Assembly (NCBI GenBank): GCA_033439265.1
Contig: JAVTVX010000016.1
Coordinates: 17,840,701 to 17,904,700, forward strand
Length of the DNA: 64,000 bases
Source: Dillenia suffruticosa
Taxonomy: Eukaryota > Streptophyta > Magnoliopsida > Dilleniales > Dilleniaceae
Direction of reading: 5' to 3'
A program made the position numbers and the translations under genes. Numbering within the stretch: position 1 is the stretch's first letter; each line of letters begins with the position of its first letter. Positions 2,609 through 44,042 of this stretch are shown here, one piece after another. The notes beneath the pieces are model-generated. The model saw only the letters and a list, made by a program, of their open reading frames with translations, was not told the DNA's origin and did not search any database.

Positions 2609-5600
2609 TTGTACTGAATCAATTGGTATCCGAAATAATATTTTAACTAATCCGATTCGAGTATTCAGATCTAATTTAGGAAAAGATCTTTCAATATAAT
2701 TTTTTCTATTCCTAAATTTTAAATAAAAAATTTGATGACACTTACGTTTATGTAATGTTAACGTGGCATGATGGAACTAACGAAGTCCATCAAAACCCGT
2801 TCACCGAAATAATTTCAAAATAATTATAAAATGGACATTATTCATAATTTTAACACCATAATCAGGATTTTCTTTTTCATGTGCAAAATTTTGAGCTTTG
2901 TGCTCAATATCTCCACCCCAAAAGAAAAAAAATAAAAAATTGCGTCTGCGTGCGGACGAGAGTGTGTCAACATAATTTTGGAAAAAAAATAATTAAAAGG
3001 TGGATGAAAAAGATGCAAGATTATTGGTCATGAATATTATGTGGGTTCCTTATATGTTCCTCCAAAGTGTTTAGGGTAGTGGGGAGAGCGCATTTTCTTG
3101 GACCCAAGATTTAAAATTAAATGAAGATGTTGATTCATTCCACAAATTCCCATCTCTACAAATTTTTGCCTTGTTTCTTTTAAAAGGCATAGCCAATTTT
3201 TAATTGTTTGTGTCATCCAAAAGTCCATACAAGAGATATCCCACTTGAGATTTTCTTGACCTTAGAGGGCAATCATAAGTCAAAATGAACATTACAAGTG
3301 GTAGGTGGGACAAATCTCAATCTCGAGTGATTTTTGTGGTTTGAGGTTAATGATAATATCACTTTCTTTGTTCAAGTTGAATACAAAGTTTTAGCTTTTA
3401 TCCCACTTTACATCAAACTCAAACCTCAACCAAAAAAGGAAATGGATAAACACTCACACCCCATAAATTGTAAAGTAAAAAATGCCATTTAAAAGAAAAC
3501 CCATTGAACCCTCCTTTAATAGTAATAACGATTTAGCATTTAAAATGAGTTATATCACAACTGATATTAATTATTTTTTATTAAAAATATTGAATTCAAA
3601 TCTCTTCTATATAATAAAAAAATAGATTCAATATTTAGCAATGTCTTGGCAATTGGCACACCAGGAGGGCTTTGACTCTCCTTTTTCCTTTTAATATGGA
3701 GCCCACCCCACAATTATTCCTCTTCTTTTATTAATTTTAACATGAATTTACTTTAACAAGACTTTAATTTTCAATAATTGCATAAACGAAGAATGTTTCT
3801 TTGATGGTTTTAGAGACTAATGAATGTTATTTAGCCCCTTGCCTACTCCCAGTATTTTATTCTTAGTCATCTTGTGCTAATTGAGTCCAAACTTGGGTCT
3901 ATCAACCTCCCTCGAGTACACACCCATTCATGGTGATTGACATCCCTTACGTTAGATGTTTTCCACGAAGTAAGAGTTTGATTTTAGGTTCAAATCTCAT
4001 CGTAACGAATAAAAGAGAGATATATATGTCTTGAAGAAAAAGATTATGCTCTGCATGTTAAACTATAAATGAATTATTTATGGTTCTGCTGATCCGCAGA
4101 ATCCAAGGTAGTGGATGACTACAGTTCGAAGCTCCACTTGTAGGACAATCAGATTCCTCCTCGAAATTCCTTCCATGACACTTCCTTTCAATCTAAAGAT
4201 GCCCATTGCAGCATTATAAACAGTGGTCTATTGACGCATTGTTGATACCAAAAAGAGAAAGAGAGAGTTTTGAAATTCTGTTCACATTCTTGTCTTAGTC
4301 AAGTCCTACCATCTCTCTTTTTTGAAAACTTCACTCAATTAACGGTTCAAAAGCCTTAAATTGGAAAAATGCTTACATTCTTTATTGAGGTAAATGGTCT
4401 AATCAAGTTGAACATGGCCTGGTAAAGCCCAAGTCAAATGGTACCATCATTTAGCAACTCTCAAATTATAGTATCTTGCAAAAAAAAATTATATACCTTA
4501 ATTCAATTTTACAATTTTCTTTCCAAAAAAATTATGAAAATTTATGTCTTTTTAATTATATTTGAGAAAATGTTTTATATTCAAATAAATTCTTCAACAT
4601 CAAATAATTTTGCTCTCTCCCCCCATCAAAGGAGAAACAAGCAACACCAAGACCTCCAATGCAGTTTTCTGGTGGTTTTCAAGCCATTGAGCCCGGAGCT
4701 CACATAGAATTGATTTCACAAAGCATCAACACCATCTATTTATGGTAAAATATTTAGGTGACAAATGCATTGTTCATACACTGACATAATTTATTTAAAA
4801 GTCGCAAAACTATTAATATGTAAAATATTTAGGTGAATTTTGAACGATACAAAGGAGGCCACACCAATGGTTTTCGACTAATATAGGTGTAGAAATATCC
4901 ATATTTCCAATCTACGTTGAAGCAGTAGGTTGATGATGAAGACTGAAAATCAAATGGCCTCAAAAAAAAATTAGACATGACTTTTTTTCTATGTAATCAG
5001 GTATCCGCAACTTAATTAATTCAAATTAAACAGTTGTGAACTCTAATTTAGAAACTCGCTCTCCCAACAGTTACATTAGACACGTCGTGTACCTAACAAA
5101 TAAAACTCAAGGTCCTAACTAGTCACCTAACCATCTTTAACTAGCCATCAGATGTGACATTCCAAGTGCATCTGGGTAGTGGTATCATAATACCCTCCCA
5201 CGTTACCGACCAGAGTTCCATTTCCCATATGCGCATGCATGTGTATTTTTTATTTTTCTTTCGTAAATAAAACTTTCATGGAAAAAACTCACTCTTCTAG
5301 CGCCTACATTAGACACAACTTGTGCCAAGCAATGAATAGTCAAGATACCAATCGGTCATTTAACCAATTTTAATTGGCCATTAGATACGAAATTTCAAGA
5401 CATTTGGTGTAGTGGTATCATAGTTTGCTCCCATGGTACTGACTGGGGTTCGACTCCCCAGACGCGGATGCATCTATATTTTTCATTTTCCTTCCATAAA
5501 ATTTTATCAAAAGAAACTCGCTCCCCCAGCACCTACATTAGACACGACCTATGCCTAGCAAACAATAGTCAGGTCAGTCATTTAACCAGCTTTAACTGGC

Positions 5601-7305
5601 CATTAGACATGACATTCCAAGCGCATTTGGTGTAGTGGAATCATAGTACCCTCCCACGATACTGACCAAGATTCGATTCCTCGAATGCACATAAATGTGT
5701 ATATTTCATTTTCCTTTCGTAAATGAAATTTTCTTGAAAGAAACTTGCTTTCAATTGTACCCGACAAAGAATAGTCAAGGTCAAAATTGGTCATTTAACC
5801 GGCTTTAACTGGCCATTAGGTATGACATTTCAAGCACATGAGGTGTAGTGGTATCATAGTACCCTCCCACGGTACTGACCAGGGTTCCCCAGAAGTGCAT
5901 GCATGTGTCTTTTTCATTTTACTTCCGCAAATAAAATTTCTTGAAAGAAACTCACTCTCACTTGTGCCCCACAAAGAGTAGTCAAGGTCCTAACTGGTGA
6001 TTTAACCGGCTTTAATTGGCCATTAGATGTGACATTCCAAGCTTATCCGATGTGGTGGTAACATAGTACCCTCCTATGGTACTAACCAAGGTTCGATTCC
6101 TCGGATGTGCACAGGTGTATTTCTCATTTTTGCCCCGCAAAGAATAGTCAAGGTCCTAACCGGTGATTTAACCAACTTTAACTGGCCATTAGATGTGACA
6201 ACATTCCAAGGGCATCTCGTGTAGTAGTGTCATAGCACCCTCCCATGGTACTGAACAGGGCTCGATTCCTCAAATGCGCACACATATGTATTTTTCATCT
6301 TCCTTTCGTGAAAAAAAATTTCTTGAAAGAAACTCACTCTCCCAGCTACATTCAACTCGACTTGTGCCCAACAAGGAATAGTCCGGTCCTAACTAGTCAT
6401 TTAACCAGCTTTAATTGGTCATTAGATGTGTTGTTCCATGCACATTTGTTGTAGTGGTATCATAGTACCCTCCCATGGTACTGATCGGAGTTTGATTCCT
6501 TGGATGCGCATGCATGTGCATTTTTCATTTTCCTTTCATAAATAAAAATTGATGGGAAGAAACTCGCTCTCACTTGTACCCGGCAAAGAATAGTCAAGGT
6601 CTTAACAGATCATTTAGCCAATTTTAACTGGCCATTAGATATGACTTTCCAAGTGCATCCTGTGTAGTGGTATTATAGTAGCCTCCCACGGTATTGACTG
6701 AGGTTCAATTCCCTCGATGTGCATGCATGTGTGATTTTTATTTTCCTTTTGTAAATAAATTTTCTTAATAGAAACCTACACTCCCCATGCCAACATTAGA
6801 CACAGCATGTGCTCGACAAAGAATAGTCTCGTAGTTGTCTAATAAATCTGACATTCCAAGTGCATCTGGTGTAGTGGTATCATAGTACCCTCCCACGGTA
6901 CTAACCGGGATTTGATTCCCTCGATGCGTATGCATGTGTATTTTTCATTTTTCCTTTTGTAAATAAAATTTTTACGAAAGAAACTCGCTCTCACTTGTCG
7001 CCAGCAAAGAATAGTCAACGTCCTAATTGGTCATTCAACCAGCTTTAATGGGCCATTAGATGTAACATTCCAAGAGCATCTAGTGTAGTGGTATCATAGT
7101 ACCCTCCCACGGTACTGACCAGGGTTCGATTCCCCGGATGCATATGCATGTGTATTTTTCATTTTCCCATTGTAAATAAATTTTCTTGAAAGAAACTCAC
7201 TCTACCAATGCCTACATTAGACATAGGTTGTGCTCGACAAATAATAGTCTTGTCCTAACTAGTCATTTAACTAGGTTTAACTGGCAATTAGATTTGACAT
7301 TTCAA

Positions 7306-7432
7306 GCGCATCTGGTGTGGTGGTACCAGAGTACCCCTACTTTGGTACCGGCTGTGGTTTGATTCCCTGGATGGCATGCATGTCACAATACCCTTCCATG
7401 GTACTGATTCGGATTCAATTCCTCGGATCACA
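7306..7432 (+). repeat. tRNA-like unit fused to a headless tRNA-like copy
   Basis: A full-length but decayed tRNA-Gly-like copy starts at 7306. Right after its 3' gcatgcatgt a second copy begins at the anticodon stem (cacaatacccttcc), lacking the first ~21 nt (5' acceptor strand and D arm). The same dimer recurs at 31686, 39300 and 40462, so it is an amplified recombinant subunit. Confidence 0.7.
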
Positions 7433-7833
7433 TGCATGTGTATTTTTCATTTTCCTTCTATAAATAAAATTTTCTCGAATGAAACTCACTCTCGCTTGTG
7501 CCTAACATAGAATAGTCAAGGTCCTAACAGCTCATTTGATTGGCATTAACTGGCCATCAGATGTGATTTTTCAAGCACATTTGTTGTCATTGTATCATAG
7601 TACTCTCCTACAGTATTGACCAAGGTTCGATTCCCTGGATGCGCATGCATGTATATTTCTCATTTTCCTCTCGAAAATAAAATTCTCTAAAAAGAACTCA
7701 CTCTCGCAACGCCTTCATTAGAAATGACTTCTGCCTAACAAATAATACTCAGGTCATAACTGGTTATTTAACTAGCTTTAGCTGTCCATTAAATGTGACA
7801 TTCCGAGCGCATCTAGTGTAGTGGTATTATAGT

Positions 7834-10458
7834 TGTGCTGACCCACTATCCAGGCTTCACCCCTAGTAAAAGGAGATAAACATGCAAATGCGGAAGCAAT
7901 CGACTCAATTAAAATGCGACGTCTGGACTCACGACAGTCGCACTCCCCATGTGTGATAACACGGAAGGAGATTTATATTAAAAAAATATATAAGTTACTT
8001 GTTCCTTCCAAATAAAACATCGACAAAGTCTCCTCTATTCAGTGACTTTTTAGCCACCTAAGATGAATAGGAAACCTGGTCCAGATTAATATGACACTTC
8101 TATTATCAAATAAGCTGGCAACAATGGCCCTCCTGGTCATCCAGCATAGCGTACTATAGTATATGAATATCATATCCATAAAACTATATATAATAGATTT
8201 TCATATGTCAAAACTCTACATCTATATAGAAATACATCTCAAGCTACAAACAAGAAAACAAATAATTATATGCCTCAAACAAAATAAAAGGGGTCCACTA
8301 TAGGTAGGGATCTAAATCTCTCAATTCAAACGCCTCTACCCTAGGCTTCCCTCTCATCTCCCAGATCACCTAAAAATGAGAATACCGGGGTCAACATAAG
8401 TTAAGCAAGTACATAGGGAACCAATAGCATGCATGTCAAATGGGCAAGTATAGAAATATCGATACCAGCATGCATTACCGTGACATTGAAAAGTACACAA
8501 GAGATACACGTTATCTCAATCAATCCCAAAAGAATATGAGCAATTACTAGTCTAGATTTATTATCTTTCTCTACCTTTATTGTTCCAATTTAAATTGATA
8601 TATAAAGAAAGAAATAAAATGTCGAATCAAGTTAATGTATGAGGGTCTGAAGAGCAAGCCAAAAATTCGGTGTTCCTAAATAAAATTTAGGTCTTTTTAG
8701 TTTAAACACCTCAATTACTTCACCTGCTTCTAATTCCACCCTCGTATGGAGAAGAGATATATCCATAGTTTCTCAAGGTTCGACCGTAAGCTTCATAAAA
8801 CTTTCGAAACTCCATATACAAACTATACTTCATAAACTTCGCCCATAGGCTTTGCAAAGCTTTCAGAGTAATCATCGTATTATCACTTTCTCTTCATATT
8901 ACTTCATCTTAACATGATTAATGATCACAAAGATCCCAATTCATCACAAGGATTACATAGAATTCATAGCAAAATTCAATATCAATTGCACAAATAAAGC
9001 CATATCAAACAATGTTTACCCCCAAAATTCACAACATAAGTTACGCAGTTAAATAACAACTAACATAACTTTTTCTGCAAATATCGGATTGAGCTAATTC
9101 TAGTGGCCATTTAAAGATAAAGACATATGACTTCAATATTTACATTCAGAGGTTAGCCTAATTCATTTTAAAAGGTAGCTCAAAATCGAAGCAATATTCA
9201 GCACAAAAACAAGTAGAAATAGGATTTTCTATAGAGAACGTGTTAATTTGAAAATTCACAAAAGTTTATTTCTCAATGAAAATCTTCGCATTTTATGTCA
9301 TTTTAAAACTATGGAAGTCTAGTTTCATCAAGAAAACCATACTAAATTTCTAGCTATGCAGAAAAATATATTGAATAAACAATAGGGCATGGTCATGCTA
9401 TAAGCAGAACAATTTTTTTACAGAGAATATGTTATTTTAAAAATTCACAAAAAATCAAATTCTACTCAAAACTCTTTGAATCATATCTTATTTTAAAGCT
9501 ATGGAAGTCTAGTTTCATTGGGAGGAAACCATACGCGATTTACAGTTATGCAGAAAAAGATATTGAGTAAAAAAATATGCATGGTTAGACTGTCCAGCAT
9601 ATAAAATTTTTAAGGTTTCATTCAAGGACGGGATTTTCTTTTCCTAATTCATTTTCTCCGAATTTCAACAACACAATTACATCAAAAACATGTTCTATAG
9701 GATTATTATACATCAATCTAACAAACACATATTAGATACTTACCTCAAATTTGCAATTCTTCATTTAAGTTTTCCTTTCTTTCCTCTTCAAACTTTTTTT
9801 GAATTTCTTGCTTGTTTTATAAGTGTTCTACACTTGCTTGCACTTCCCAAAGGCTAGAGTTAACTTATATATGGATGGAGATGCGTTATTTCAAGCATAA
9901 AAGGTTATTTTAATGGAGTTTTGGATAGATTTTTGAAGGAGAATGGAGGCCGAAAATGAACTTTGAGAAAGGTGATTGTTATATTTTAAACTTATTTCTC
10001 CACCCATTTCTTTCTACCTAAGTGCAATGCGGGGCCCAATCATGGTGAGATGTCAAAGATAAAAGTGCCATGTGGTGGTTGATGATGTGCCATGGTGTCC
10101 AAAATTATTTTTGTTTTAATTTAATTTTTTTTTCCTTTTCTTTTTCTTTTCATTTTTTGTTTTTTTTTCTTTTTCTTTTGTGTGTCCCACACCAAACCCT
10201 AATTTGGTTCTCTTGTATTTTTTTCAATCATTTCTACGAGCCAATATGTTCCATAATCGATGTTAATTTTAATATATTTAATCTCTTCTTAAAATCATAA
10301 ACATAAAAAATGACACATGCATTGCAATTGTATCTAAAATCACATTGCATCTAATTTATCACAATGCGATACAATACGATGCAAACAAATTTAAGTATGA
10401 TAAATAGAAATATAAACGAAAATGTATGTCTTAATATTTCTAAGAATGGGATCTTATA
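7834..10458. mobile_element. Solo LTR, copy 1 (2625 bp), inserted in a tRNA-Gly-like unit
   Basis: The element starts TGTGCTGACCC and ends GATCTTATA (GATCTTACA in the other copy), so the ancestral ends are TG...CA in either orientation. It is flanked by a perfect 5-bp target duplication ATAGT (7829-7833 and 10459-10463). The tRNA-like unit reads continuously across the insertion (gtggtattatagt | actctcccacgatactgacc). There is no second LTR and no gag-pol, so it is a solo LTR left by recombination between two LTRs. A pyrimidine-rich stretch (about 10120-10180) and a degenerate ~190-bp internal duplication (about 9236-9600) are visible. Orientation and superfamily are not resolved; 5-bp duplications and a 2.6-kb length suit a large gypsy-type LTR. 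Confidence 0.88.
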
Positions 10459-12015
10459 ATAGTACTCTCCCACGATACTGACCAAGGTTTGATTCTCCGA
10501 ATGTGCATGCGGAGAATGTGCATGCATGTGTATATTTCATTTTCCTTTCGTGTAAAAATTTTCTTGAAAGGAATGCACTCTCACTTGTGCACAACAAAAA
10601 TAGTCAAGGTTTAAACTAGTCATTTAACAAGTTTTAACTGGCCATTAGGTGTAACATTCTATGCGCATCTGGTGTAGTGGTATTGTAGTACCCTCCCACG
10701 GTACTGACCAAGGTTCGATTCCCTTGATGCGCATGCATGTATATTTTTCATTTTCCTTCCGTAAATAAAATTTTCATGGAAGCAACTCACACTCACTTGT
10801 GCCCTGCAAAGAATAGTCAAGGTCCTAACTGGTGATTTAACTAGCTTTAACTGGCCATTAGATGTGACATTCCAAGCGCATCCAGTATACTGGTATCATA
10901 GTAACCTCCCATAAAGAATAGTCAAGGTCCTATGGTGATTTGACTAGATTTAACTTGCCATTAGATGTGACATCCCAAGGGCATCAAGTGTAGTGTTATC
11001 TTAGTACCCTCCCATGGTACTGACCAGGGCTCGATTCCCGAGATGCGCACTCGTGAATTTTTCATCTTCCTTTCATATATAAAATTTTCTCAAAAGAAAC
11101 TCGCTCTCCCAGTTACATTAGACTCGCCTTGTGCCCCAAAACGAATAGTGATTTCCTAACTAGTCATTTAACCTGCTTTAACAGGACATTAGATGTGTCA
11201 TTCCAAGTGCATTTGCTGTAGTGGTATCATGGTATCCTCCCATTGTATTGACTGGGGTTTGATTCCCTGGATGAGCATGCTTGTGCATTTTTCACATTCC
11301 TTTCATAAATAAAATTTTATAGGAAGAAACTTGTTCTCACTGGAGCCCGGCAAAGAATAGTCAAGGTCTTAACAGATCATTTAACCAGCTTTAACTCGCC
11401 TTTAGATGTGACATTCCAAGCTCATCTGGTATAGTGGTATCATAGTATACTCCCACGATACTAACTGAGGTTCAATTCTCCGGATGCGCATGCATGTGTA
11501 TTTTTCATTTTCCTTCGTAAATAAATTTTCTCAAAAGAAACTTGTATGCCCTATGACAACATTAGACACAGCTTGTGCTAGGCAAAGAATAGTCTTGTCC
11601 ATGTCTATAGGATGTGACATTGCAAGCGCATCTGATGTAGTGCTATCAAAGTACTGTCCCACGGTATTGACCGGGGTTCGATTCCCTGGATGCGCATGCA
11701 TGTGTATTTTTCATTTTCCTTTCGTAAAATAAAATTTTCATGAAAAAAATCGCTCTCACTCATGGCTGTTAAAGAATAGTCAAGGTCCTAACTGGTCATT
11801 CAACCAGATTTAACAGGCCATTAGATAGTACCCTCCCATGGTACAGACTGGGGTTCTATTCACTGAATGTGCATGCATGTGTATATATCATTTTATTTTT
11901 ATAAATAAAATTTTCATGAAAGAGACCCGCTCTCACTCGTGGCCAGCAAAGAATAGTCAAGGTCCTAACTAGTCATTCAACCATCTTTAACAGGCCATTA
12001 GATGTGACATTCCAG

Positions 12016-16811: not shown

Positions 16812-17263
16812 TGCATGTGTGTTTTTCATTTTAATTCAACCAAGTGAGTTTGCTGTAGTGATCTCATAGTGCACTCCCATGGTGCTGACCGGGGTTCGAT
16901 TCCCCGCTTGGGCATGTATGTGCATTTTTCATTTTCCTTTCATAAAAAAATTTTTCTGAAAAGAAACTCGCTCTCACTTGTGCCCAACAAAGAATAGTTA
17001 AGTTCCTAACCGATCATTTAACCAGCTTTAACTGGCCTTTGAATATGGCAATCCAAGCTCATCTGGTGTAGTGGTATCATAGTATACTCCCACGGTACAG
17101 ACCAAGCTTCGATTCCCCAAATGCAAATGCATGTGTATTTTTTATTTTCCTTTTGTAAATAAATTTTCTCAAAAGAAACCCACACTCCCTATGACAACAT
17201 TAGGCACAGCTTGTGCTTGGCAAAGAATAGTTACGTCCTTGTCTATTAAATGTGACATTCCTA

Positions 17264-17334
17264 ACGCATTAGGTGTACTGGTATCATAGTACCCTCTCAC
17301 GGTACAAATCGGGGTTTGACTCCTTGGACGCGCA
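17264..17334 (+). pseudogene. tRNA-like copy with glutamate-type anticodon CTC (type-3 unit)
   Basis: The anticodon loop is ctctcac, giving nominal anticodon CTC (Glu). The anticodon stem is intact. The acceptor acgcatt/gacgcgc has two A-C mismatches, and the T arm (ggtttgactcc) departs from the B-box consensus. It is copied in each 2846-bp repeat and is most likely a pseudogene. Confidence 0.6.
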
Positions 17335-17475
17335 TCATGTGTATTTTTCATTTTCCATTTCTAAATAAAGTTTTCATGAAAGAAACTTGCTCTCACTCGA
17401 GGCCGGTAGAGAATTGTCAAGGTCTTAACTGGTCATTCAACCAGCTTTAATGGGCCGTTAGATGTGAGATTCCAA

Positions 17476-17546
17476 GCGCATTTGATGTAGTGGTATTATA
17501 GTACCCTCACACGGTACTGACCGGGGTCCAATTCCTTGGATGCGCA
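17476..17546 (+). pseudogene. tRNA-like copy with valine-type anticodon CAC (type-4 unit)
   Basis: The anticodon loop is ctcacac, giving nominal anticodon CAC (Val). The anticodon stem is fully paired; the acceptor pairs with one wobble; the T stem cgggg/ccttg pairs using G-U, but the loop is tccaatt instead of ttcgatt, which damages the B box. Counterparts occur at 20322, 23168, about 26013 and 28384. It derives from tRNA-Gly by point mutation and is probably not functional. Confidence 0.6.
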
Positions 17547-17641
17547 TGCATGTATGTTTTTCATTTTCCTTTCGTAAATAAAATTTTCAAGAAAGAAACT
17601 CGCTCTCACTCGTGGCCGACAAAGAATAGCCAAGGTCCTAA

Positions 17642-17657
17642 CTGGTCATTCAACCAG
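17642..17657 (+). other. Conserved spacer hairpin upstream of the tRNA (representative)
   Basis: The spacer reads ctggt-cattca-accag, an inverted repeat about 31-47 nt upstream of the tRNA, present with variation in most units (some read ctggtt-attc-aaccag). The 3' arm accag can instead pair with a downstream ctgg in units reading accagctttaactgg, giving two mutually exclusive hairpins. Function is unknown. Confidence 0.5.
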
Positions 17658-17688
17658 CTTTAATGGGACATTAGATGTGACATTCCAA

Positions 17689-17759
17689 GCGCATCTGGTG
17701 TAGTGGTATCATAGTACCCTCCCACGGTACTGACCGGGGTTCGATTCCCCGGATGCGCA
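17689..17759 (+). tRNA. tRNA-Gly(CCC), canonical intact copy in repeat A
   Basis: The fold is complete: acceptor gcgcatc/gatgcgc plus discriminator A, anticodon stem gtacc/ggtac with loop ctcccac (CCC), T stem cgggg/ccccg with loop ttcgatt. It is the only unit in this 2846-bp repeat with every stem intact, and the neighbouring units at 17476 and 17909 are already degenerate. The same base-perfect gene recurs at +2846 (20535) and +5692 (23381). It would decode GGG glycine codons if transcribed by pol III and aminoacylated. Confidence 0.86.
17696..17748 (+). promoter_or_regulatory. Internal pol III promoter: A box and B box (representative)
   Basis: The A box tggtgtagtgg spans 17696-17706 and the B box ggttcgattcc spans 17738-17748; both fit the plant tRNA consensus. 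CCAA at 17685-17688 lies where plant tRNA genes commonly have a CAA start motif. Most array units retain recognisable forms of both boxes, so the region holds a very dense set of potential TFIIIC sites. Confidence 0.75.
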
Positions 17760-17765
17760 TGCATG
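17758..17765 (+). promoter_or_regulatory. CATGCATG (RY-type) motif at the tRNA 3' end (representative)
   Basis: The tRNA acceptor end and trailer create gcatgcatg. CATGCA is the RY element bound by plant B3-domain factors. The motif recurs at the same place in most units. It may simply be part of the repeat consensus; no binding is shown. Confidence 0.4.
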
Positions 17766-17769
17766 TGTA

Positions 17770-17774
17770 TTTTT
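17770..17774 (+). terminator. Pol III oligo-T terminator (representative)
   Basis: Five consecutive T residues begin 11 nt after the tRNA discriminator base and would end a pol III transcript. Nearly all units have four to seven T at this position. Confidence 0.75.
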
Positions 17775-19686
17775 CATTTTCCTTCGGTAAAAAAATATTT
17801 TCAAGAAAGAAACTCGCTCTCACTCGTGATCGGCAAAGAATAAACAAGGTCTTAACTGGTCATTCAACCAGCTTTAATGGGCCATTAGATGTGACATTCC
17901 AAGTGCATTTGGTGTAGTGGTATCATAGTACCCTCCCACGGTACTGACCACGTTCGATTCCCCGGATGTGCATGCATGTGTTTTTTTCATTTTCCTTTGG
18001 TAAAATTATATTTTCAAGGAAGAAACTCGCTCCCACTCGTGGCCGGCAAAGAATAGCAAAGATCCTAACTGGTTATTCAACCAGCTTTAATGGGCCATTA
18101 GATGTGACATTCCAAGTGCATCTGGTGTAGTGGTATCATAGTACCCTCCCACGGTACTAACCGGGGTTTGATTCCTTGAATGTACATGTATGTGTATTTT
18201 TCATTTTCCTTTCATAAATAAAATTTTCAAGGAAGAAACTCGCTCCCACTCATTGCCGAAAAAGAATAGTCAAGGTCTTAACTGGTTATTCAACTTGCAT
18301 TAATGGGGCATTTCATGTTACATTCTAAGTGCATCTGGTGTGGTGGTATCGTAGCACCGTCCCACGGTACTGACCAGGGTTCGATTTCCCAGATGCGCAT
18401 GCAAGTGTATTTTTCATTTTCCCTTTGTAAATAAATTTTGCAGAAAGAAATTTAGTCTCCCAATGCCCACATTAGACACAGCTTGTGCTTGGAAAAGAAT
18501 AGTCTTGTCTAAAGTAGTCATTTAACTAGCTTTCGCAAGCTTTTAGATTTGTCATTCCAAGCACATCTGGTGTAGTGGTATCAGAGTAACTTTCTACGGC
18601 TTTAACAGGTCTTTCAAACAGCATTAATGGGCTATTAAATGTGACATTCCAAGCATATTTGGTGCAATGGTATCAAAGTACCATCCTATGGTACAGACCG
18701 GGGTTCTATTCCCTGAATATGCATGCATGTGTATTTTTCATTTTCTTTTCATAAATAAAATTTTCATGAAAGGGACTCACTGTCACTCGTGGCCGGCAAA
18801 GAATAGTCAAGGTCCTAACTAGTCATTCAACCATCTTTAACGGGCCATTAGATGGGACATTCGAGGCGCATCTGGTGTAGTGGTATCATAGTACCCTCCC
18901 ACGATACTGACCAAGGTTCGATTCCCTAGATGTGCATGCATGTATATTTTTTATTTTCCTTCCGTAAATAAATTTTTCATGAAAGAAACTTGCACTCACT
19001 CGTGGCTGGAAAAGAATAGTCAAGTTCCTAACTGGTCATTCAACTAGCTTTAACGGGCCATTACACGTGACATTCCATGCGCATTTGGTGCAGTGGTATC
19101 GTAGTACCCTCCCACGATATTGACCAGGGTTCGATTCCCCGGATGCGCATGCATGTGTATTTTTTTGTTTTCCTTCCGTAAGTAAAATTTTCTTGGAAGA
19201 AACTCACTCTCACTTGTGCCCCACAGAGAATAGTCAAGGTCCTAACTGGTGATTTAACCAGCTCTGACTAGACATCATATGTGACTTTCCAAGCGCATCG
19301 AGTGTACTAGTATCATAGTACCCTCCCATGGTACTGACCAGGGTTTGATTCCCCAGTTGTGCACACATGTGTATTTCTCACTTGTGCCCCATAAAGAATA
19401 GTCAAGGTTTAACTGGTGATTTAACCAGCTTTAATTTGCCTTTAGATGTGACATCCCAAGGGCATCAAGGGTAGTAGTATCTTAGTACCCTCCCATGGCA
19501 TTGACGAGGGCTCGATTCGCCAAATGTGCATTGATGTATATTTCCCATCTTCTTTTCATAAACAAAATTTTTTCAAAAGAAACTCGTTCTCCTAGCTATA
19601 TTAGACTCAACATATGCCCGAGAAGAAACAGTCAACTCTTAACTGGTCATTTAACCTGCTTTAATAAGTCATTCGATGTGTCATTC

Positions 19687-22532
19687 CAAGTGAGTTTGCT
19701 ATAGTGATCTCATAGTGCACTCCCATGGTGCTGATCGGGGTTCGATTCCCCGCCAGGGCATGTATGCGCATTTTTCATTTCCCTTTCATAAAAAAATTTT
19801 TCTGAAAAGAAACTCGCTCTTACTTGTGCCCAGCAAAGAATAGTTAAGTTCTTAACCGATCATTTAACCAGCTTTAACTGGCCTTTGAATATGGCAATCC
19901 AAGCTCATCTGGTGTAGTGGTATCATAGTATACTCCCACGGTACCGACCAAGCTTCGATTCCCCAAATGCACATGCATGTGTATTTTTTATTTTCCTTTT
20001 GTAAATAAATTTTCTCAAAAGAAACCCACACTCCCTATGACAACATTAGGCACAGCTTGTGCTTGGCAAAGAATAGTTACGTCCTTGTCTATTAAATGTG
20101 ACATTCCTAACGCATTAGGTGTACTGGTATCATAGTACCCTCTCACGGTACAAATCGGGGTTTGACTCCTTGGACGCGCATCATGTGTATTTTTCATTTT
20201 CCATTTCTAAATAAAGTTTTCATGAAAGAAACTTGCTCTCACTTGAGGCCGGTAGAGAATTGTCAAGGTCTTAACTGGTCATTCAACCAGCTTTAATGGG
20301 CCGTTAGATGTGAGATTCCAAGCGCATCTGATGTAGTGGTATTATAGTACCCTCACACGGTACTGACCGGGGTCCAATTCCTTGGATGCGCATGCATGTA
20401 TGTTTTTCATTTTCCTTTCGTAAATAAAATTTTCAAGAAAGAAACTCGCTCTCACTCGTGGCCGACAAAGAATAGCCAAGGTCCTAACTGGTCATTCAAC
20501 CAGCTTTAATGGGACATTAGATGTGACATTCCAAGCGCATCTGGTGTAGTGGTATCATAGTACCCTCCCACGGTACTGACCGGGGTTCGATTCCCCGGAT
20601 GCGCATGCATGTGTATTTTTCATTTTCCTTCGGTAAAAAAATATTTTCAAGAAAGAAACTCGCTCCAACTCGTGATCGGGAAAGAATAAACAAGGTCTTA
20701 ACTGGTCATTCAACCAGCTTTAATGGGCCATTAGATGTGACATTCCAAGTGCATTTGGTGTAGTGGTATCATAGTATCCTCCCACGGTACTGACCGCGTT
20801 CGATTCCCCGGATGTGCATGCATGTGTATTTTTCATTTTCCTTTGGTAAAATTATATTTTCAGGGAAGAAACTCGCTCCCACTCGTGGCCGGCAAAGAAT
20901 AGCCAAGATCCTAACTGGTTATTCAACCAGCTTTAATGGGCCATTAGATGTGACATTCCAAGTGCATCTAGTGTAGTGGTATCATAGTACCCTCCCATGG
21001 TACTAACCGGGGTTTGATTCCTTGAATGTACATGTATGTGTATTTTTCATTTTCCTTTCATAAATAAAATTTTCAAGGAAGAAACTCGCTCCCACTCATT
21101 GCCGAAAAAGAATAGTCAAGGTCTTAACTGGTTATTCAACTTGCGTTAACGGGGCATTACATGTTACACTCTAAGTGCATCTGGTGTGGTGGTATCGTAG
21201 CACGGTCCCACGGTACTGACCAGGGTTCGATTTCCCAGATGCGCATGCATGTGTATTTTTCATTTTGCCTTTGTAAATAAATTTTGCAGAAAGAAATTTA
21301 GTCTCCCAATGCCCACATTAGACACAGCTTGTGCTTGGCAAAGAATAGTCTTGTCTAAAGTAGTCATTTAACTAGCTTTTGCAAGCTTTTAGATTTGTCA
21401 TTCCTAGCACATCTGGTGTAGTGGTATCAGAGTAACTTTCTACAGCATTAACAGGTCTTTCAAACAGCATTAATGGGCTATTAAATGTGACATTCCAAGC
21501 ATATTTGGTGCAATGGTATCATAGTACCATCCTATGGTACAGACCGGGGTTCTATTCCCTGAATGTGCATGCATGTGTATTTTTCATTTTCTTTTCATAA
21601 ATAAAATTTTCATGAAAGGGACTCACTGTCACTCGTGGCCGGCAAAGAATAGTCAAGGTCCTAACTAGTCATTCAACCATCTTTAACGGGCCATTAGATG
21701 GGACATTCGAGGCGTATCTGGTGTAGTTGTATCATAGTACCCTCCCACGATACTGACCAATGTTCGATTCCCTAGATGTGCATGCATGTATATTTTTTAT
21801 TTTCCTTCCGTAAATAAATTTTTCATGAAAGAAACTTGCACTCACTCGTGGCTGGAAAAGAATAGTCAAGTTCCTAACTGGTCATTCAACTAGCTTTAAC
21901 GGGCCATTACACGTAACATTCCATGCGCATTTGGTGAAGTTGTATCGTAGTACCCTCCCACGGTACTGACCAGGGTTCGATTCCCCGGACGCGCATGCAT
22001 GTGTATTTTTTTGTTTTCCTTCCGTAAGTAAAATTTTCTTGGAAGAAACTCACTCTCACTTGTGCCCCACAGAGAATAGTCAAGGTCCTAACTGGTGATT
22101 TAACCAGCTCTGACTAGACATCAGATGTGACTTTCCAAGCGCATCGAGTGTACTAGTATCATAGTACCCTCCCATGGTACTGACCAGGGTTTGATTCCCC
22201 AGTTGTGCACACATGTGTATTTCTCACTTGTGCCCCATAAAGAATAGTCAAGGTTTAACTGGTGATTTAACCAGCTTTAATTTGCCTTTAGATGTGACAT
22301 CCCAAGGACATCAAGGGTAGTAGTATCTTAGTACCCTCCCATGGCATTGACGAGGGCTCGATTCGCCAAATGTGCATTGATGTATATTTCTCATCTTCTT
22401 TTCATAAACAAAATTTTTTCAAAAAAAACTCGTTCTCCTAGCTATATTAGACTCAACATATGCCCGAGAAGAAACAGTCAACTCTTAACTGGTCATTTAA
22501 CCTGCTTTAATAAGTCATTCGATGTGTCATTC
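19687..22532 (+). repeat. Higher-order repeat copy B (2846 bp)
   Basis: It has the same landmark, unit order and length as copy A. Long stretches, such as the segments around 17169-17351 and 20015-20197, have no amino-acid-level differences even though they are noncoding. The canonical tRNA-Gly(CCC) is at 20535. Confidence 0.88.
20535..20605 (+). tRNA. tRNA-Gly(CCC), canonical intact copy in repeat B
   Basis: It is identical over 71 nt to the copy at 17689, which lies exactly 2846 bp upstream: full acceptor, anticodon (CCC) and T-arm pairing, upstream CCAA and downstream TTTTT. Its upstream spacer (caaccagctttaatgggaca) is also unchanged, so gene and flank were copied together. Confidence 0.86.
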
Positions 22533-23380: not shown

Positions 23381-23451
23381 GCGCATCTGGTGTAGTGGTA
23401 TCATAGTACCCTCCCACGGTACTGACCGGGGTTCGATTCCCCGGATGCGCA
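23381..23451 (+). tRNA. tRNA-Gly(CCC), canonical intact copy in repeat C
   Basis: It is identical over 71 nt to the copies at 17689 and 20535, with the same flanks and terminator. In this repeat too it is the only unit with every stem intact. Confidence 0.86.
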
Positions 23452-25378: not shown

Positions 25379-27749
25379 CAAGTGAGTTTGCTATAGTGAT
25401 CTCATATTGCACTCCCATGGTGCTGATCGGGGTTCGATTCCCCGCCTGGGCATGTATGCGCATTTTTTATTTCCCTTTCATAAAAAAATTTTTCTGAAAA
25501 GAAACTCGCTCTTACTTGTGCCCAGCAAAGAATAGTTAAGTTCTTAACCGATCATTTAACCAACTTTAACTGGCCTTTGAATATGGCAATCCAAGCTCAT
25601 CTGGTGTAGTGGTATCATAGTATACTCCCACGGTACCGACCAAGCTTCGATTCCCCAAATGCACATGCATGTGTATTTTTTATTTTCCTTTTGTAAATAA
25701 ATTTTCTCAAAAGAAACCCACACTCCCTATGACAACATTAGGCACAGCTTGTGCTTGGCAAAGAATGTTACGTCCTTGTCTATTAAATGTAACTTTCCTA
25801 ACGCATTAGGTGTGTTGGTATCATAGTACCCTCTCACGGTACAAATCGGGGTTTGACTCCTTGGACGCGCATCATGTGTATTTTTCATTTTCCATTTCTA
25901 AATAAAGTTTTCATGAAAGAAACTTGCTCTCACTCAAGGCCGGTAGAGAATTGTCAAGGTCTTAACTGGTCATTCAAACAGCTTTAATGGGCCGTAAGAT
26001 GTGAGATTCCAAGCGCATCTGATGTAGTGGTATTATAGTACCCTCACACGGTACTGACCGGGGTACAATTCCATGGATGCGCATGCATGTATGTTTTTCA
26101 TTTTCCTTTCGTAAATAAAATTTTCAAGAAAGAAACTCGCTCTCACTCGTGGCCGACAAAGAATAGCCAAGGTCCTAACTGGTCATTCAACCTGCTTTAA
26201 TGGGACATTAGATGTGACATTCCAAGCGCATCTGGTGTAGTGGTATCATAGTACCCTCCCACGATACTGACCGGGGTTCGATTCCCCGGATGCGCATGCA
26301 TGTGTATTTTTCATTTTCCTTCGGTAAAAAAATATTTTCAAGAAAGAAACTCGCTCTCACTCGTGATCGGCAAAGAATAAACAAGGTCTTAACTGGTCAT
26401 TCAACCAGCTTTAATGGGCCATTAGATGTGACATTCCAAGTGCATTTGGTGTAGTGGTATCATAGTACCCTCCCACGGTACTGACCGCGTTCGATTCCCC
26501 GGATGTGCATGCATGTGTATTTTTCATTTTCCTTTGGTAAAATTATATTTTCAAGGAACAAACTCGCTCCCACTCGTGGCCGGCAAAGAATAGCCAAGAT
26601 CCTAACTGGTTATTCAACCAGCTTTAATGGGCCATTAGATGTGACATTCCAAGTGCATCTGGTGTAGTGGTATCATAGTACCCTCCCACGGTACTAACCG
26701 GGGTTTGATTCCTTGAATGTACATGTATGTGTATTTTTCATTTTCCTTTCATAAATAAAATTTTCAAGGAAGAAACTCGCTCCCACTCATTGCCGAAAAA
26801 GAATAGTCAAGGTCTTAACTGGTTATTCAACTGGCGTTAACGAGGCATTACATGTTACATTCTAAGTGCATCTGGTGTGGTGGTATTGTAGCACCGTCCC
26901 ACGGTACTGACCAGGTTTCGATTTTCCAGATGCGCGTGCATGTGTATTTTTCATTTTCCCTTTGTAAATAAATTTTGCATAAAGAAATTTAGTCTCCCAA
27001 TGCCTATATTAGACACAACTTGTGCATGTATATTTTTTATTTTTCTTCCGTAAATAAATTTTTCATGAAAGAAACTTGCACTCACTCGTGGCTGGAAAAG
27101 AATAGTCAAGTTCCTAACTGGTCATTCAACTAGCTTTAACGGGCCATTAGACGTGACATTCCATGCTCATTTGGTGCAGTGGTTTCGTAGTACCCTCCCA
27201 CGGTACTTACCAGGGTTCGATTCCCCGGATGCGCATGCATGTGTATTTTTTTGTTTTCCTTCCGTAAGTAAAATTTTCTCGGAAGAAACTCACTCTCACT
27301 TGTGCCCCACAGAGAATAGTCAAGGTCCTAACTGGTGATTTAACCAGCTATGACTAGACATCAGATGTGACTTTCAAAGCTCATCGAGTGTACTAGTATC
27401 CTAGTACCCTCCCATGGTACTGACCAGGGTTTGATTCCCCAGTTGTGCACACATGTGTTTTTCTCACTTGTGCCCCATAAAGAATAGTCAAGGTCTTAAC
27501 TTGTTATTTAACCAGCTTTAACTTTCCATTAGGACATCCCAAGGGCATCTAGGGTAGTAGTATCACAGTACCCTCCCATGGAATTGACGAGGGCTCGATT
27601 CCCCAAATGTGCATTGATGTATATTTTTCATCTTCCTTTCATAAACAAAATTTTCTTAAAAGAAACTCGTTCTCCTAGCTATATTAGACTCAACATATGC
27701 CCTAACTGGTCATTTAACCTGCTTTAATAAGTCATTAGATGTGTCATTC
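25379..27749 (+). repeat. Higher-order repeat copy D with a 475-bp deletion (2371 bp)
   Basis: It matches copies A-C up to about 27025, where the trailer of the type-8 unit (cttgtgc) joins the trailer of a type-11 unit (tgcatgtatatttttt), removing types 9-11. The 2371-bp length equals 2846 minus 475. A short shared tgtgc/gcatg stretch at the joint suggests microhomology-mediated deletion or unequal exchange. Confidence 0.8.
26226..26296 (+). pseudogene. tRNA-Gly(CCC) copy, one base from canonical, in repeat D
   Basis: It is identical to the canonical copy except that the 3' anticodon stem reads gatac instead of ggtac, leaving a C-A mismatch. Everything else, including acceptor, T arm and terminator, is intact. 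It may still be functional at reduced stability. Confidence 0.55.
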
Positions 27750-28596
27750 CAAGTGAGTTTGCTGTAGTGATCTCATAGTACACTCCCATGGTGCTGACCG
27801 GGGTTCGATTCCCCGCCTGGGCATGTTTGTGCATTTTTCATTTTCCTTTCATAAAAAATTTTTCTGAAAAGAAACTCGCTCTCACTTGTGCCCAGCAAAG
27901 AATAGTTAAGTTCTTAACCGATCATTTAACCAGCTTTAACTGGCCTTTGAATATGGCAATCCAAGCTCATCTGGTGTAGTGGTATCATAGTATACTCCCA
28001 CGGTACCGACCAAGCTTCGATTCCCCAAATGCACATGCATGTGTATTTTTTATTTTCCTTTTGTAAATAAATTTTCTCAAAAGAAACCCACACTCCCTAT
28101 GACAACATTAGGCACAGCTTGTGCTTGGCAAAGAATAGTTACATCCTTGTCTATTAAATGTGACATTCCTAACGCATTAGGTGTACTGGTATCATAGTAC
28201 CCTCTCACGGTACAAATCGGGGTTTGACTCCTTGGACGCGCTTCATGTGTATTTTTCATTTTCCATTTCTAAATAAAGTTTTCATGAAAGAAACTTGCTC
28301 TCACTCGAGGCCGGTAGAGAATTGTCAAGGTCTTAACTGGTCATTCAACCAGCTTTAATGGGCCGTTAGATGTGAGATTCCAAGCGCATCTGATGTAGTG
28401 GTATTATAGTACCCTCACACGGTACTGACCGGGGTCCAATTCCTTGGATGCGCATGCATGTATGTTTTTCATTTTCCTTTCGTAAATAAAATTTTCAAGA
28501 AAGAAACTCGCTCTCACTCGTGGCCGACAAAGAATAGCCAAGGTCCTAACTGGTCATTCAACCAGCTTTAATGGGACATTAGATGTGACATTCTAA

Positions 28597-28667
28597 GCGC
28601 ATCTGGTGTAGTGGTATCATAGTACCCTCTCACGGTACTGACCGGGGTTCGATTCCCCGAATACGCA
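28597..28667 (+). pseudogene. Decayed tRNA-Gly copy in repeat E, anticodon CTC
   Basis: This is the positional counterpart of the canonical copy. The anticodon loop is ctctcac and the 3' acceptor strand aatacgc breaks two pairs. The T arm is still perfect. Confidence 0.6.
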
Positions 28668-29773
28668 TGCATGTGTATTTTTCATTTTCCTTCGGTAAAA
28701 AAATATTTTCAAGAAAGAAACTCGCTCTCACTCGTGACTGGCAAAGAATAAACAAGGTCTTAACTGGTCATTCAACCAACTTTAATGGGCCATTAGATGT
28801 GACATTCCAAGTGCATTTGGTGTAGTAGTATCATAGTACCCTCCCACGGTACTGACCGCGTTCGATTCCCCAGATGTACATGCATGAGTATTTTTCATTT
28901 TCCTTTGGTAAAATTATATTTTCAAGAAAGAAACTCGCTTCCACTCGTGGCCGGCAAAGAATAGCCAAGATCCTAACTGGTTATTCAACCAGCTTTAATG
29001 GGCCATTAGATGTGACCTTCCAAGTGCATCTGGTGTAGTGGTATCATAGTACCCTCCCTCGGTACTGACCGGGGTTTGATTCCTTGAATGTACATGTATG
29101 TGTGTTTTTCATTTTCCTTTCGTAAATAAAATTTTCAAGGAAGAAACTCGCTCCCACTCATTGCTGAAAAAGAATAGTCAAGGTCTTAACAGGTTATTCA
29201 ACTTGCGTTAACGGGGCATTACATGTTACATTCTAAGTTTATGTGGTGTGGTGGTATCGTAGCACCGTCCTACGGTACTGACCAGGGTTCGATTTCCCAG
29301 ATGCGCATGCAAGTGTATTTTTCATTTTCCCTTTGTAAATAAATTTTGCAGAAAGAAATTTAGTCTCCCAATGCCCACATTAGACACAGCTTGTGCTTGG
29401 CAAAGAATAGTCTTGTCTAAAGTAGTCATTTAACTAGCTTTTGCAAGCTTTTAGATTTGTCATTCCAAGCACATCTGGTGTAGTAGTATCAGAGTAACTT
29501 TCTATGGCATTAACAGGTCATTCAAGTAGCATTAACGGGCTATTAAATGTGACATTCCAAGCATATTTGGTGCAATGGTATCATAGTACCCTCTTACGGT
29601 ACAGACCGGGGTTCTATTCCCTGAATGTGCATGCATGTATATTTTTCATTTTCTTTTCATAAATAAAATTTTCATAAAAGGGACTCACTATCACTCGTGG
29701 CCGGCAAAGAATAGTCAGGGTTCTAACTAGTCATTCAACCATCTTTAACGGGCCATTAGATGGGCCATTAGAG

Positions 29774-32222: not shown

Positions 32223-34848
32223 TGTGTGGACCCGCTATCCAGGTATCGCCCCTAGCAAAAGGAGATAAACATGCAAATGCAAAAGCAATCAACTCAATTA
32301 AAATGCGACGTCTGGACTTGCGACAGTCACACTCCCCGTGTGTGATAACACGAAAGGAGATTTATATTAAAAAATATATAAGTTACTTGTTCTTTCCAAA
32401 TAAAATATCGACAGAGTCTCTCACATTCAGTGACTATTTAGCTACCTAAGATGAATAGGAAACCTGGTCCAGATTAATATGACACTTCTATTATCAAATA
32501 AGCTGGCACCAATAGCCCTCCTGGCCGTCCAGCATAGCATACTATAGTATATGAATATCATATCCACAAAACTATATATAATAGATTTTTATGTGTCAAA
32601 ACTATACATCTATATAGAAATACATCTCAAACTACTAACAAAAACACAAATAATTACATGCCTCAAACAAAATAAAAGGGGTCCACGATGGGTAGGGATC
32701 TAAATCTCACAACTCAAATGCCTCTACCTTGGGCTTCCCTCTCGTCTCCCAGATCACCTACAAATGAGAATATCGGGGTCAACATAAGTTGAGCAAGTAC
32801 ACAGGGAACCAATAGCTTGCATGTCAAATGGGCAAGTATAGAGATATCGATACCAACATGCATTACCGTGACATTAAAAAGTATACAAGAGATACACGTT
32901 ATCTTAATCAATTCCAAAAGAATATGAGCAATTACAGTCTAGATTTATTATCTTTCTCTAGCTTTATTGTTCCAATTTAAATTGATATATAAAGAAAGGA
33001 ATAAAATGTCAAACCAAGCTAATGTATGATGGTCTGAAAAGCAAACCAAAAATTCAGTATTCCTAAATGAAATTTAGGTCGTTTTAGATTAGACACCTCA
33101 ATCACTTCACCTGCTTCTAATTCCACCATCGTAGGGAGAAGAGATATATCCATAGTTCCTCAAGTTTCGCCCGTAAGCTTCACAAAGCTTTCAGAACTCC
33201 ATATACTAATTGTACTCCATAAACTTCGCCCATAGGCTTCGCAAAGCTTTTGGAGTAACGATCGTATTATCACTTTCTCTTCATATTACTTCATCTTAAC
33301 ATGATTAATGATAACAAAGATCCCAATTCATTACAAGGATTATATAGAATTCATAGCAAGATTCAATACCAATTGCACAAATAAAGCCACATCAAATAAT
33401 GTTAACCACAAAATTCACAACATAACTTGCGCAGTTATAGAACAACTAACATAACTTCTTCTATAAATATCAGATTGAGGTAATTCCAGTGGCTATTTAA
33501 AGATAAGACATAGGGCTACAATGTTTATATTCAGAGGTTAGCTTAATTCAGCTTAAAAAGTAGCTCAAAATCGAAGCAATATTCAGCAAAAAAAAGGTAG
33601 AAATAGGATTTTCTATAGAGAACGTGTTAATTTGAAAATTCACAAAAAAATTATTTCTCAATGAAAATTTTCACATTTTATGTCATTTTAAAACTATGAA
33701 AGTCTAGTTTCATTAAGAGAAAACCATACTAAATTTCTAGTTGTGCAGAAAAAAATATTGAATAAAAAATAGAGCATAGCCATGCTATAAGCAAAACAGT
33801 TTTTCTACAGAGAATATATTACTTTAAAAATTCACCAAAAATCAAATTCTTCTCAAAACTCTTTGAATGATATCTTATTTTAAAGCTATAGAAGTTTCAT
33901 TGGGAGAAAACCCTACTCGATTTATAGTTATGTCAAGAAAGATATTGAGTAAAAAATAGGGTATGGTCAGACAGTCCAGCATAAAAAATTTCAAAGGTTT
34001 CATTCATGGATGGAATTTTCTTTTTCGTAATTCATTTTCTCTTAATTCCAACAATATAATTACATCAAAAACATGTTCAATAGGATTATTATACATCAAT
34101 TTAACAAACACATACAAGATACTTACCTCAAATTTGCAATTCTTCATTTGAGTTTTCTTTTCTTTCCTCTTCAAACTTTTTTTGAATTTCTTCCTTGTTT
34201 TATAACTGTTCTACACTTGCTTTCACTTCCCAAAGGCTAGAGTTAATATATATATGGATGGAGATGCATTATTTCAAGCACAAAGGGTTGTTTTAATGGA
34301 GATTTTGGTAGATTTTTTAAGGAGAATGATGGACGCCGAAAATGAATTTTGAGGAAGGTGATTGTTATATTTTAAACTTATTTCTCCACCCCTTTCTTTC
34401 TGCCTAAGTGCAATGCGGGGCCCAGTCATGGTGAGGTGTCAGAGATAAAAGTGCCATGTGGTGGTTGATGATGTGCCATGGTGTCCAAAATTATTTTTAT
34501 TTTAATTTATTTTATTTTTCCCTTTCTTTTTCTTTTCCTTTTCTTGTTTTTTTTTCTTTTTCTTTTGTGGGTCCTACACCAAACCCTAATTTGGTTCACT
34601 TGTTGGATTTTTTTCAATCGTTTCTACAAGCCAATATGTTCCATAATCGATGTTAATTTTAATATATTTAATCTCTTCTTAAAATCATAAACATAAAACA
34701 CAAAACATGCATTGCAAATACATCTAAAATCATATTGCATCTAATTTAACACAATGCAATACAATGTGATGCAAACGAATTTAAGAAAGATAAATAGAAA
34801 TATAAACAAAAATGCATGCCTTAATATTTCTAAGAATGAGATCTTACA
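32223..34848. mobile_element. Solo LTR, copy 2 (2626 bp), in the duplicated tRNA unit
   Basis: It begins TGTGTGGACCC and ends GAGATCTTACA, flanked by ATAGT (32218-32222) and ATTGT (34849-34853), a 5-bp target duplication with one later change. It aligns end to end with 7834-10458 (about nine bases in ten alike by eye), is inserted at the same tRNA position, and has homologous flanking units at an offset of about 24389 bp. It is therefore a duplicate of the first insertion and not a second hit. No coding potential is seen. Confidence 0.88.
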
Positions 34849-42610: not shown

Positions 42611-42681
42611 GTGCATCTAGTGTAGTGGTATCATAGTACCCTCCCATGGTATTGACCAGGGTTTGATTTCCCAGATGCACT
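42611..42681 (+). pseudogene. tRNA-Gly-like copy with compensatory acceptor pair
   Basis: The acceptor is gtgcatc/gatgcac: the canonical second pair C-G has become T-A on both strands, keeping a perfect 7-bp stem. The T arm (caggg, loop tttgatt, tccca) is broken, so the gene as it stands is probably dead. Confidence 0.5.
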
Positions 42682-44042
42682 TGCATGTGTATTTTTCATT
42701 TTCCTTTCATAAATTAAATTTTCTCAAAAGAAACTCGCTCCCACTTATTCCCAGCAAAGAACAGTGAAGGTCATAACTGGTCATTTAATCAACTTTAACT
42801 GGCCATTATATGTGACATTCCAAGTGCATCTGTTTTAGTGGTATCATACTGACCAGGGTTCATTTCCTGAGACACACATGCATTTGTATGTTTTATTTTT
42901 GTTTCATAAATAAAATTTTCTCAGAAGAAACTCGCTCTCACTTGTGTTTGGCAAGAATAGTAAACATCCTAACCGGTCATTTAACCAACTTTAACTAAAC
43001 ATTTGATGTGTTACTTGAAGCGCATCTGGTGTGTATGTCTTAGTACCCTCCCGCGGTACTGACCAGGGTTCGATTCTTCGGATGCACATCCATTTGTATT
43101 TTTCATTTTCCTTTCGTAAATAAATTTTTCTCCAAAAAAAAAAATTCTCGAAAGAAACTCACTCTTACTTGTGCTCGGCAAAGAAGAGTCAAGGTCCTAA
43201 CTTGTCATTTAACAAGCTTTGAATCGCTATTAGTTGTGACATTCCAATCACCTCTGGTGTAGTGGTATCAAAGTATCCTTCCACGGTACTGGATTTTCTG
43301 GATACGCATGCATGTGTATTTTTTATTTTCCTTTTGTAAATAAAATTTTCTCAAAAGAAACTTGCTCTCACTTGTGCTAGGCATAGAATAGTCATTGTCC
43401 TAACTGGTCATTTAACCCGCTTTTACTGGCCATTAGATGCGACCTTCCAAACTCATCTAGTGTAATGGTATTATAGACCCTTCCACGTTAATGGCTAGGA
43501 TTCAATTCCCCAAATGCGTATGAAGGTGTATTTTTCATTTTTATTTTGTAAATAAAATTTTCTCGAAAGAAACTCACTCTCCCAACTCCTACATTATACA
43601 CAACTTGTGCCCGATAAAGAATAGTCAGAGTCCTAACTAGTCATTTAACCATCTTTTATTGGCCATGAGATATGGCATTCCAAGAACATCTGGTGTAGTG
43701 GTATCATTGTACCTCCCATTGCATTGACCATGGTTCGATTCTTGGACACGCATGCATGTGTATTTTTCATTTTCCTTTCGTAAATGAAATTTTCTCAAAA
43801 GCAACCCGCTCTCCATCACCTACATTAGACATGACTTGTGCCTGACAAAGAATAATCAAGGTTCTAACCGGTCATTTAAGCAACTTTAACTGGCCATTAG
43901 ATGCAACATTCCTAGCACATCTGGATTAGTGTTATCGTAGTACCCTTCCATAGTACTCATCGGGGTTTGAATCCCCGGATGTGCATGCATGTAAATTTTT
44001 TATTTACCTTTCGTAAATAAAATTTTCTCAATACCCCACAAA

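Follow-up and report, generated by a model that had tools for sequence, protein, structure and literature searches.

How far can a gene of the translation apparatus be carried towards satellite DNA, and what becomes of its copies there? This question is raised by a locus in the genome assembly of Dillenia suffruticosa (Dilleniaceae; GCA_033439265.1, 596 Mb in 37 contigs), where a 64,000-nucleotide stretch of contig JAVTVX010000016.1 (C16:17840701-17904700; this whole stretch is called the window) contains about 39 kb of head-to-tail sequences resembling tRNA-Gly genes with the anticodon CCC. The array occupies 5055..44042 on the + strand; these outer limits are those of an earlier reading made without database searches (the sequence-only reading), and the left one was inspected. 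Judging from its sequence, the array is very probably a mostly neutral, silenced satellite derived from a tRNA gene, and a member of the tandem tRNA gene clusters of plants.

A 71-nt profile was derived from 12 copies in the window, and an nhmmer search with it found 169 tRNA-Gly(CCC)-like copies (E<=1, partial copies included), all on the + strand, the first at 5166 and the last at 43985; 140 of them are nearly full length. The same profile had no match at this threshold in the roughly 25 kb of the window outside the array, and a chance resemblance was rejected on this ground. Start-to-start spacing is below 300 bp in 166 of 168 intervals, the remaining two bridging the 2.6-kb inserts described below, and tRNA genes of a single isotype thus lie less than 1 kb apart, as in the tandem tRNA gene clusters recognized in plants. 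The modal period is 213 bp (exactly 213 in 50 of the 167 spacings between the 168 matches at E<=0.1), the spacer being 142 bp long. The tandem array announced by the sequence-only reading is therefore real, although its count of about 150-160 units becomes 169 with partial copies included, its 205-bp unit has to give way to the 213-bp one, and of its 39 kb, correct as a span, about 5.25 kb belongs to the two copies of the insert.

The gathering score of the Rfam tRNA family RF00005 (29 bits) is reached at 57 places, with a maximum of 61.8 bits, so members of the array score as tRNAs; 112 of the 169 copies, or about two thirds, remain below this cut-off. The canonical 71-mer is present in exact form five times in the window, with starts at 13726, 16741, 17689 (17689..17759, + strand), 20535 and 23381. 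The sequence-only reading was prepared to be abandoned if such copies had no tRNA score, and each of the five scores 61.5 bits against RF00005. The consensus of the A box is found in 86 of the 169 copies and an exact B box in 46; a run of four T lies no more than 30 nt downstream in 146, and CAA within the upstream 12 nt in 121. CCAA stands directly 5' of the gene in 109 copies, and the T-run begins 10 nt past the gene in 110. The CAA motif, the box consensus and this placement of the T-run are all expected of plant genes transcribed by RNA polymerase III (Pol III). A box, B box and terminator are combined in 25 of the 169 copies, and all four features, including CAA, in 14.

ARAGORN called 68 tRNAs in the window, 52 of them with the anticodon CCC; CCT, CTT, CTC and TCC were also called in the array. 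Seven copies carry a CAC (Val-type) anticodon on the Gly tRNA body (16215, 17476, 20322, 23168, 26013, 28384 and 31040), and in four of these (16215, 17476, 20322 and 28384) 20 of the 21 stem pairs are retained, as in the copy at 17476..17546 on the + strand.

The organization above the level of the single unit is that of a satellite, with head-to-tail 213-bp monomers, a higher-order repeat and local homogenization. The core (16840..25377, + strand) consists of three complete higher-order repeats of 2,846 bp with 14 tRNA matches each (16840-19685, 19686-22531 and 22532-25377), which are 98.1-98.7% identical, that is, they differ at 1.3-1.9% of sites, whereas the average difference between units of the window is about 25%. 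Alignment showed that two shortened repeats of about 2.37 and 1.77 kb follow at 25378..29517 (+ strand); their identity is 96.7-97.5% with the complete repeats and 94.6% between themselves over aligned columns. Adjacent units have a mean identity of 0.738 and units 90 apart one of 0.725, and similarity is greatest (0.788) at a lag of 12 near-full-length units, which corresponds to the higher-order repeat. Because neighbors are hardly more alike than distant units and the peak lies at lag 12, amplification appears to act on blocks. Identity to the canonical sequence decreases with distance from position 20000, which was chosen as the center of the core (Spearman -0.28, p = 6.5e-4, n = 140; units are not independent, and p-values are indicative only).

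A much larger block is also repeated within the array: 5137..10912 (+ strand) and 29532-35287 are 82.9% identical at an offset of 24,395 bp. Each copy of this internal duplication includes a 2.6-kb insert. The first insert (7834..10458) interrupts the tRNA copy that starts at 7807, after tRNA position 27, begins with TG and ends with TA, has ATAGT on either side, and contains no open reading frame (ORF) longer than 83 aa; an exact-word search also gave TTATA as a shared word there, as long as ATAGT. The second (32223..34848) lies at the same tRNA position, has the ends TG and CA, and is bordered by ATAGT and ATTGT, an exact 5-bp flanking repeat not being found by the exact-word search. From these ends and positions we read the insert as a probable solo long terminal repeat that landed before the internal duplication. 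Identity between the two inserts is 91.3%, whereas in the array sequence of this duplication about 18% of sites differ, and this contrast suggests that exchange among array units took place after the duplication.

The manner in which the copies decayed gives a further clue. The reference for the window tRNA parts was the canonical sequence, which is also that of five dispersed genes, and 140 window copies were scored. C-to-T changes were found at 28% of CG, 16% of CHG and 8% of CHH sites, and G-to-A changes at 23%, 19% and 6%, respectively; the reverse changes amounted to 3.6% (T-to-C) and 2.9% (A-to-G). The order CG > CHG > CHH recurs for C-to-T changes in the window spacer (27%, 21% and 9%; 96 units) and, more weakly, in a related array on another contig, C5 (19%, 16% and 11%; 54 units); in both of these, changes were counted against a consensus made under a CG-restoring rule, which inflates the CG class, though not CHG against CHH. 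Heterochromatic methylation in plants would leave losses at CHG as well as at CG sites. We infer from this pattern that germ-line methylation has acted on the array during much of its existence. The tandem SYY cluster of Arabidopsis (tRNA-Tyr/Tyr/Ser, chromosome 1) is methylated in the order mCG > mCHG > mCHH (PMC12308677; here and below, statements on the literature concern the consulted parts of each paper), and the order of decay in the window is the same.

Slower change of the tRNA part than of the spacer was sought in four sets of duplicated segments and was not found; differences in the tRNA part are at least as frequent as those in the spacer. In the recent set, the differences were 31/942 for tRNA and 39/1904 for spacer (p 0.056), and in the older sets 185/1006 and 347/1975 (p 0.61), 158/1125 and 237/2102 (p 0.035), and 322/1358 and 613/2764 (p 0.33), where a low p means that the tRNA changed faster, and where the sets overlap in sequence and are not independent (two additional rows, A/B and A/C, are contained in the first set). 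These sequences thus bear no trace of selection after the duplications; older constraint or conversion may still have acted.

Four arrays were recognized in the genome, with the following numbers of matches at E<=0.1: 168 in the window, 16 in a second array on C16 (C16:17924370-17927500, 40 kb downstream of the window array), nine in a fragment at C16:17.19 Mb (0.65 Mb from the window array), and 57 in the C5 array at 17.64 Mb of that contig. The genome search gives scores to its top candidates only and passes over very frequent words, and genome-wide counts are therefore lower bounds. With a 428-bp array query (16 of 17 candidates scored), the unit including its spacer was found only in the C16 and C5 arrays; elsewhere this query matches just the tRNA, with about 20 nt more at C13. 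SINE-like dispersal of the unit (SINE, short interspersed nuclear element), the other outcome that the sequence-only reading had set against itself, was accordingly not observed. The exact canonical 71-mer occurs at least 18 times (40 of 331 candidates scored): in addition to the five window copies, there are one at C16:17.19 Mb, seven in the C5 array and five as dispersed single genes. A sixth single gene is 99% identical to the canonical sequence. Each single is the sole copy in its surrounding 5.0-5.5 kb, and the 60-bp flanks on each side of the six seem, by eye, to be related neither to the array nor to each other. In a tree of units, the 166 C16 units used form one group (support 0.58) in which the three C16 arrays are intermixed, and the C5 units, under the rooting used, do not form one clade. 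Mean unit distances are 0.164 within C5, 0.248 within the window and 0.349 between the two.

The surroundings of the arrays indicate how they are related. Upstream, the window array and the second C16 array have about 2.9 kb in common, in pieces of 76-87% identity; downstream they have 548 bp in common in two pieces (84-85%), and an additional 207-bp piece (89%), shared by both downstream flanks, lies 8.7 kb farther out beside the window array. An exon for an amino-acid permease C-terminus (PF13906; 61752..62036, - strand), which we have ourselves named a cationic amino-acid transporter, is located 18 kb past the window array, and its copy at C16:17938345 (89% identical in amino acids) is 11 kb past the second one. 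Since both the flanks and this exon are shared, the two arrays are products of the duplication of a whole segment on C16. The downstream boundary sequence (44060..44420; four matching places, all three candidates scored) has its only other matches next to the second C16 array and the C5 array (77%). The upstream boundary (4786..5054) matches the second C16 array at 76% and, more weakly, C5 (68% across some 160 bp); a stretch of 80 bp within it has a further match on C26 (77%). Upstream matches of 485 and 81 bp between C5 and the second C16 array were dropped, as this stretch is a dispersed repeat, and short boundary stretches alone link C5 with C16. Judging from these boundaries, a single ancestral tRNA locus, or a small array formed early on, probably gave rise to the loci on both C5 and C16. 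The 17.19-Mb fragment has just short scattered matches (36-255 bp) to the flanks of the other arrays.

We propose that a tRNA-Gly(CCC) gene, together with about 140 bp of its flank, was amplified in tandem into an array of 213-bp units, probably by unequal exchange between copies. Most of the array would be untranscribed and would turn over as near-neutral satellite DNA, its core perhaps still being re-amplified and its edges ageing, with the dispersed single genes presumably supplying the tRNA of the cell. As far as the sequence-only reading described the array as mostly pseudogenized and organized like a satellite, it is upheld by the higher-order repeat, the tRNA part that is no slower than the spacer in duplicated segments, the methylation-type decay and the identical single genes elsewhere.

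Several points weigh against this explanation. Exact canonical copies persist in the array, so that some transcription is possible. The CG class of the spacer and C5 data is inflated, as mentioned above, and the observed/expected ratio of CpG is not low in the array (0.63, against 0.60 in the insert and 0.60 and 0.73 in the flanks). The authors of the SYY study consider methylation likely not to be the cause of the silencing of that cluster (PMC12308677). When all pairs of units are compared, tRNA divergence is slightly below spacer divergence in the window (0.221 versus 0.265) and in the C5 array (0.135 versus 0.175), the relation being reversed in the second C16 array (0.231 versus 0.204); this comparison is biased in that a match to the tRNA was the criterion for including a unit. 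At non-CG sites, too, the tRNA changes less than the spacer, most clearly in the C5 array. The test on duplicated segments gave nothing for the C5 array, in which no duplicate above 500 bp and 93% passed the filter, and for this array the all-pairs means are the basis of comparison. The lower change of the tRNA could be due to past selection, to conversion from canonical copies, or to the bias in the selection of units.

A different explanation is that the array is a functional, developmentally controlled reserve of tRNA-Gly genes, silent in most tissues and switched on in some, as SYY reportedly is in root tips. SYY is methylated and yet expressed along the root (PMC12308677), and the exact canonical copies (five in the window, one at 17.19 Mb and seven in the C5 array), the 25 copies with both boxes and a terminator, and the slightly lower tRNA divergence in two of the three arrays compared would all suit such a reserve. 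However, with two thirds of the copies below the Rfam cut-off, a tRNA part that changes no more slowly than the spacer in duplicated segments, and five identical dispersed genes at hand, we regard it as unlikely. A bolder variant is that the array serves as a nursery of new tRNA identities, in which structurally sound copies with other anticodons keep arising, the higher-order repeat multiplies part of them, and some could be expressed as anticodon-shifted tRNAs; the C5 array, with its seven exact canonical copies and shared boundaries, could mean that such a process has been going on since before the loci separated. We give this idea very little credence.

The two remaining explanations concern the origin and the reality of the array, and both are highly improbable. 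The unit, a tRNA head with a 142-bp body, might be a tRNA-derived SINE or another transposon piled up in tandem, since SINE-derived satellites exist (PMC10702118) and a Helitron origin has been argued for the tRNA-Cys cluster of Arabidopsis (PMC10701932). Dispersed copies of a SINE should comprise head and body, end in a tail and be flanked by target duplications, whereas the singles found here share, by eye over 60 bp on each side, the tRNA alone; among the candidates scored, the unit with its spacer was found only in the four arrays, and it is for this reason that a SINE is not likely. Moreover, the tRNA is full length and canonical, and the boundary sequences common to the loci fit segment duplication. 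A SINE or transposon origin was rejected on the placement of the spacer in the genome and the flanks of the singles. Assemblers fail at highly similar higher-order repeats, and a short tRNA cluster might thus have been inflated by misassembly. However, the units differ by about a quarter on average and even the full higher-order repeats are not identical, the decay is biased by sequence context, and separate diverged arrays exist elsewhere; misassembly could alter mainly the number of higher-order repeats. The satellite derived from a tRNA gene remains the explanation that we prefer.

Some features of the neighborhood are noted in addition. About 8 kb upstream of the array lies an open frame of 616 aa for a PPR-DYW protein (C16:17835702-17837549, - strand). 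A possible homeology of C5 and C16, as a pair from a whole-genome duplication, was sought through the neighboring genes and was not shown: for the PPR gene, no close second copy was found among the 71 scored of 1,459 candidates (best other, 44%), the best copy of the transporter exon off C16 is on C34 (80%), where the tRNA searches reported nothing, and part of the upstream flank of the C5 array matches C24 (79%). The exon adjoining the C5 array matches ABC_tran. The right flank of the window array contains an AT-rich region with imperfect inverted repeats (48613-49100), tandem repeats at 49187-49295 and 49505-49687, a 93-bp tandem repeat in 5.3 copies (59295-59788), and retroelement fragments matching RVT_2 (52058-52342, - strand) and RT_RNaseH_2 (56744-57109, + strand). 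The nine-copy fragment (C16:17.191-17.194 Mb) is bracketed by two non-array copies of about 0.55 kb that are 87-93% alike in four pieces.

Among the tandem tRNA clusters of plants, the SYY cluster of Arabidopsis is the closest comparison. It measures almost 40 kb (PMC10701932) and has a core of major copies flanked by variable regions richer in pseudogenes (PMC12308677); a tandem arrangement of tRNA genes, a size near 40 kb and a core with degenerate edges are thus common to both. In contrast to the 27 three-gene units of SYY, the window array has 169 single-gene copies, about two thirds of them below the Rfam cut-off, with a 213-bp unit and a higher-order repeat, and related arrays exist at three other places. 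Other plants with tandem tRNA genes include the moss 'Cpu', which we take to be Ceratodon purpureus. Duplication of tRNA genes in tandem at less than 1 kb is shared with this moss, with the tRNA-Pro and tRNA-Cys clusters of Arabidopsis and with 28 tRNA-Ile genes of maize (PMC12652284, PMC11700998, PMC10701932), and a survey of 50 plants reports tRNA clusters of two to 110 genes (PMC12652284). The sequence-only reading was right that large plant clusters are known, and somewhat overstated how unusual this one is, given the size and layout of SYY and the larger of these clusters. In sunflower, 117 tRNA-Gly genes were predicted, none of which passed the filter (PMC11700998), and this may be a lead to a similar case. 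A tRNA-Gly(CCC) array or a higher-order repeat is not mentioned in the consulted parts of the plant tRNA surveys, whose supplementary tables could list one, and in searches of the open-licence literature, supplements aside, no account of this array came to light, nor one of a tRNA-derived plant satellite that has higher-order repeats. Outside plants, the tRNA arrays of Entamoeba and the tDNA clusters of zebrafish and Nematostella are likewise tandem or clustered tRNA blocks with pseudogenes (PMC2888827), but these belong to other lineages and are compared here by description. The 5S rDNA of pike is also an amplified Pol III gene with higher-order organization and heavy methylation (PMC5437419), differing in that it encodes 5S rRNA rather than tRNA and belongs to a fish. 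In short, the array in D. suffruticosa is distinct from the known clusters in its single-gene 213-bp unit, its higher-order repeat, the degree of its decay and its four related loci.

This locus is a clear example of satellite DNA arising from a gene of the translation apparatus, and one genome shows several states of it: intact single genes, the fairly uniform C5 array with its many intact copies, the large and more decayed window array with its higher-order repeat, and a small displaced fragment. The window array is a natural comparison for the SYY cluster of Arabidopsis, and its CG- and CHG-biased decay allows one to test how general the silencing of tandem tRNA genes is in plants, and how fast it destroys the genes.

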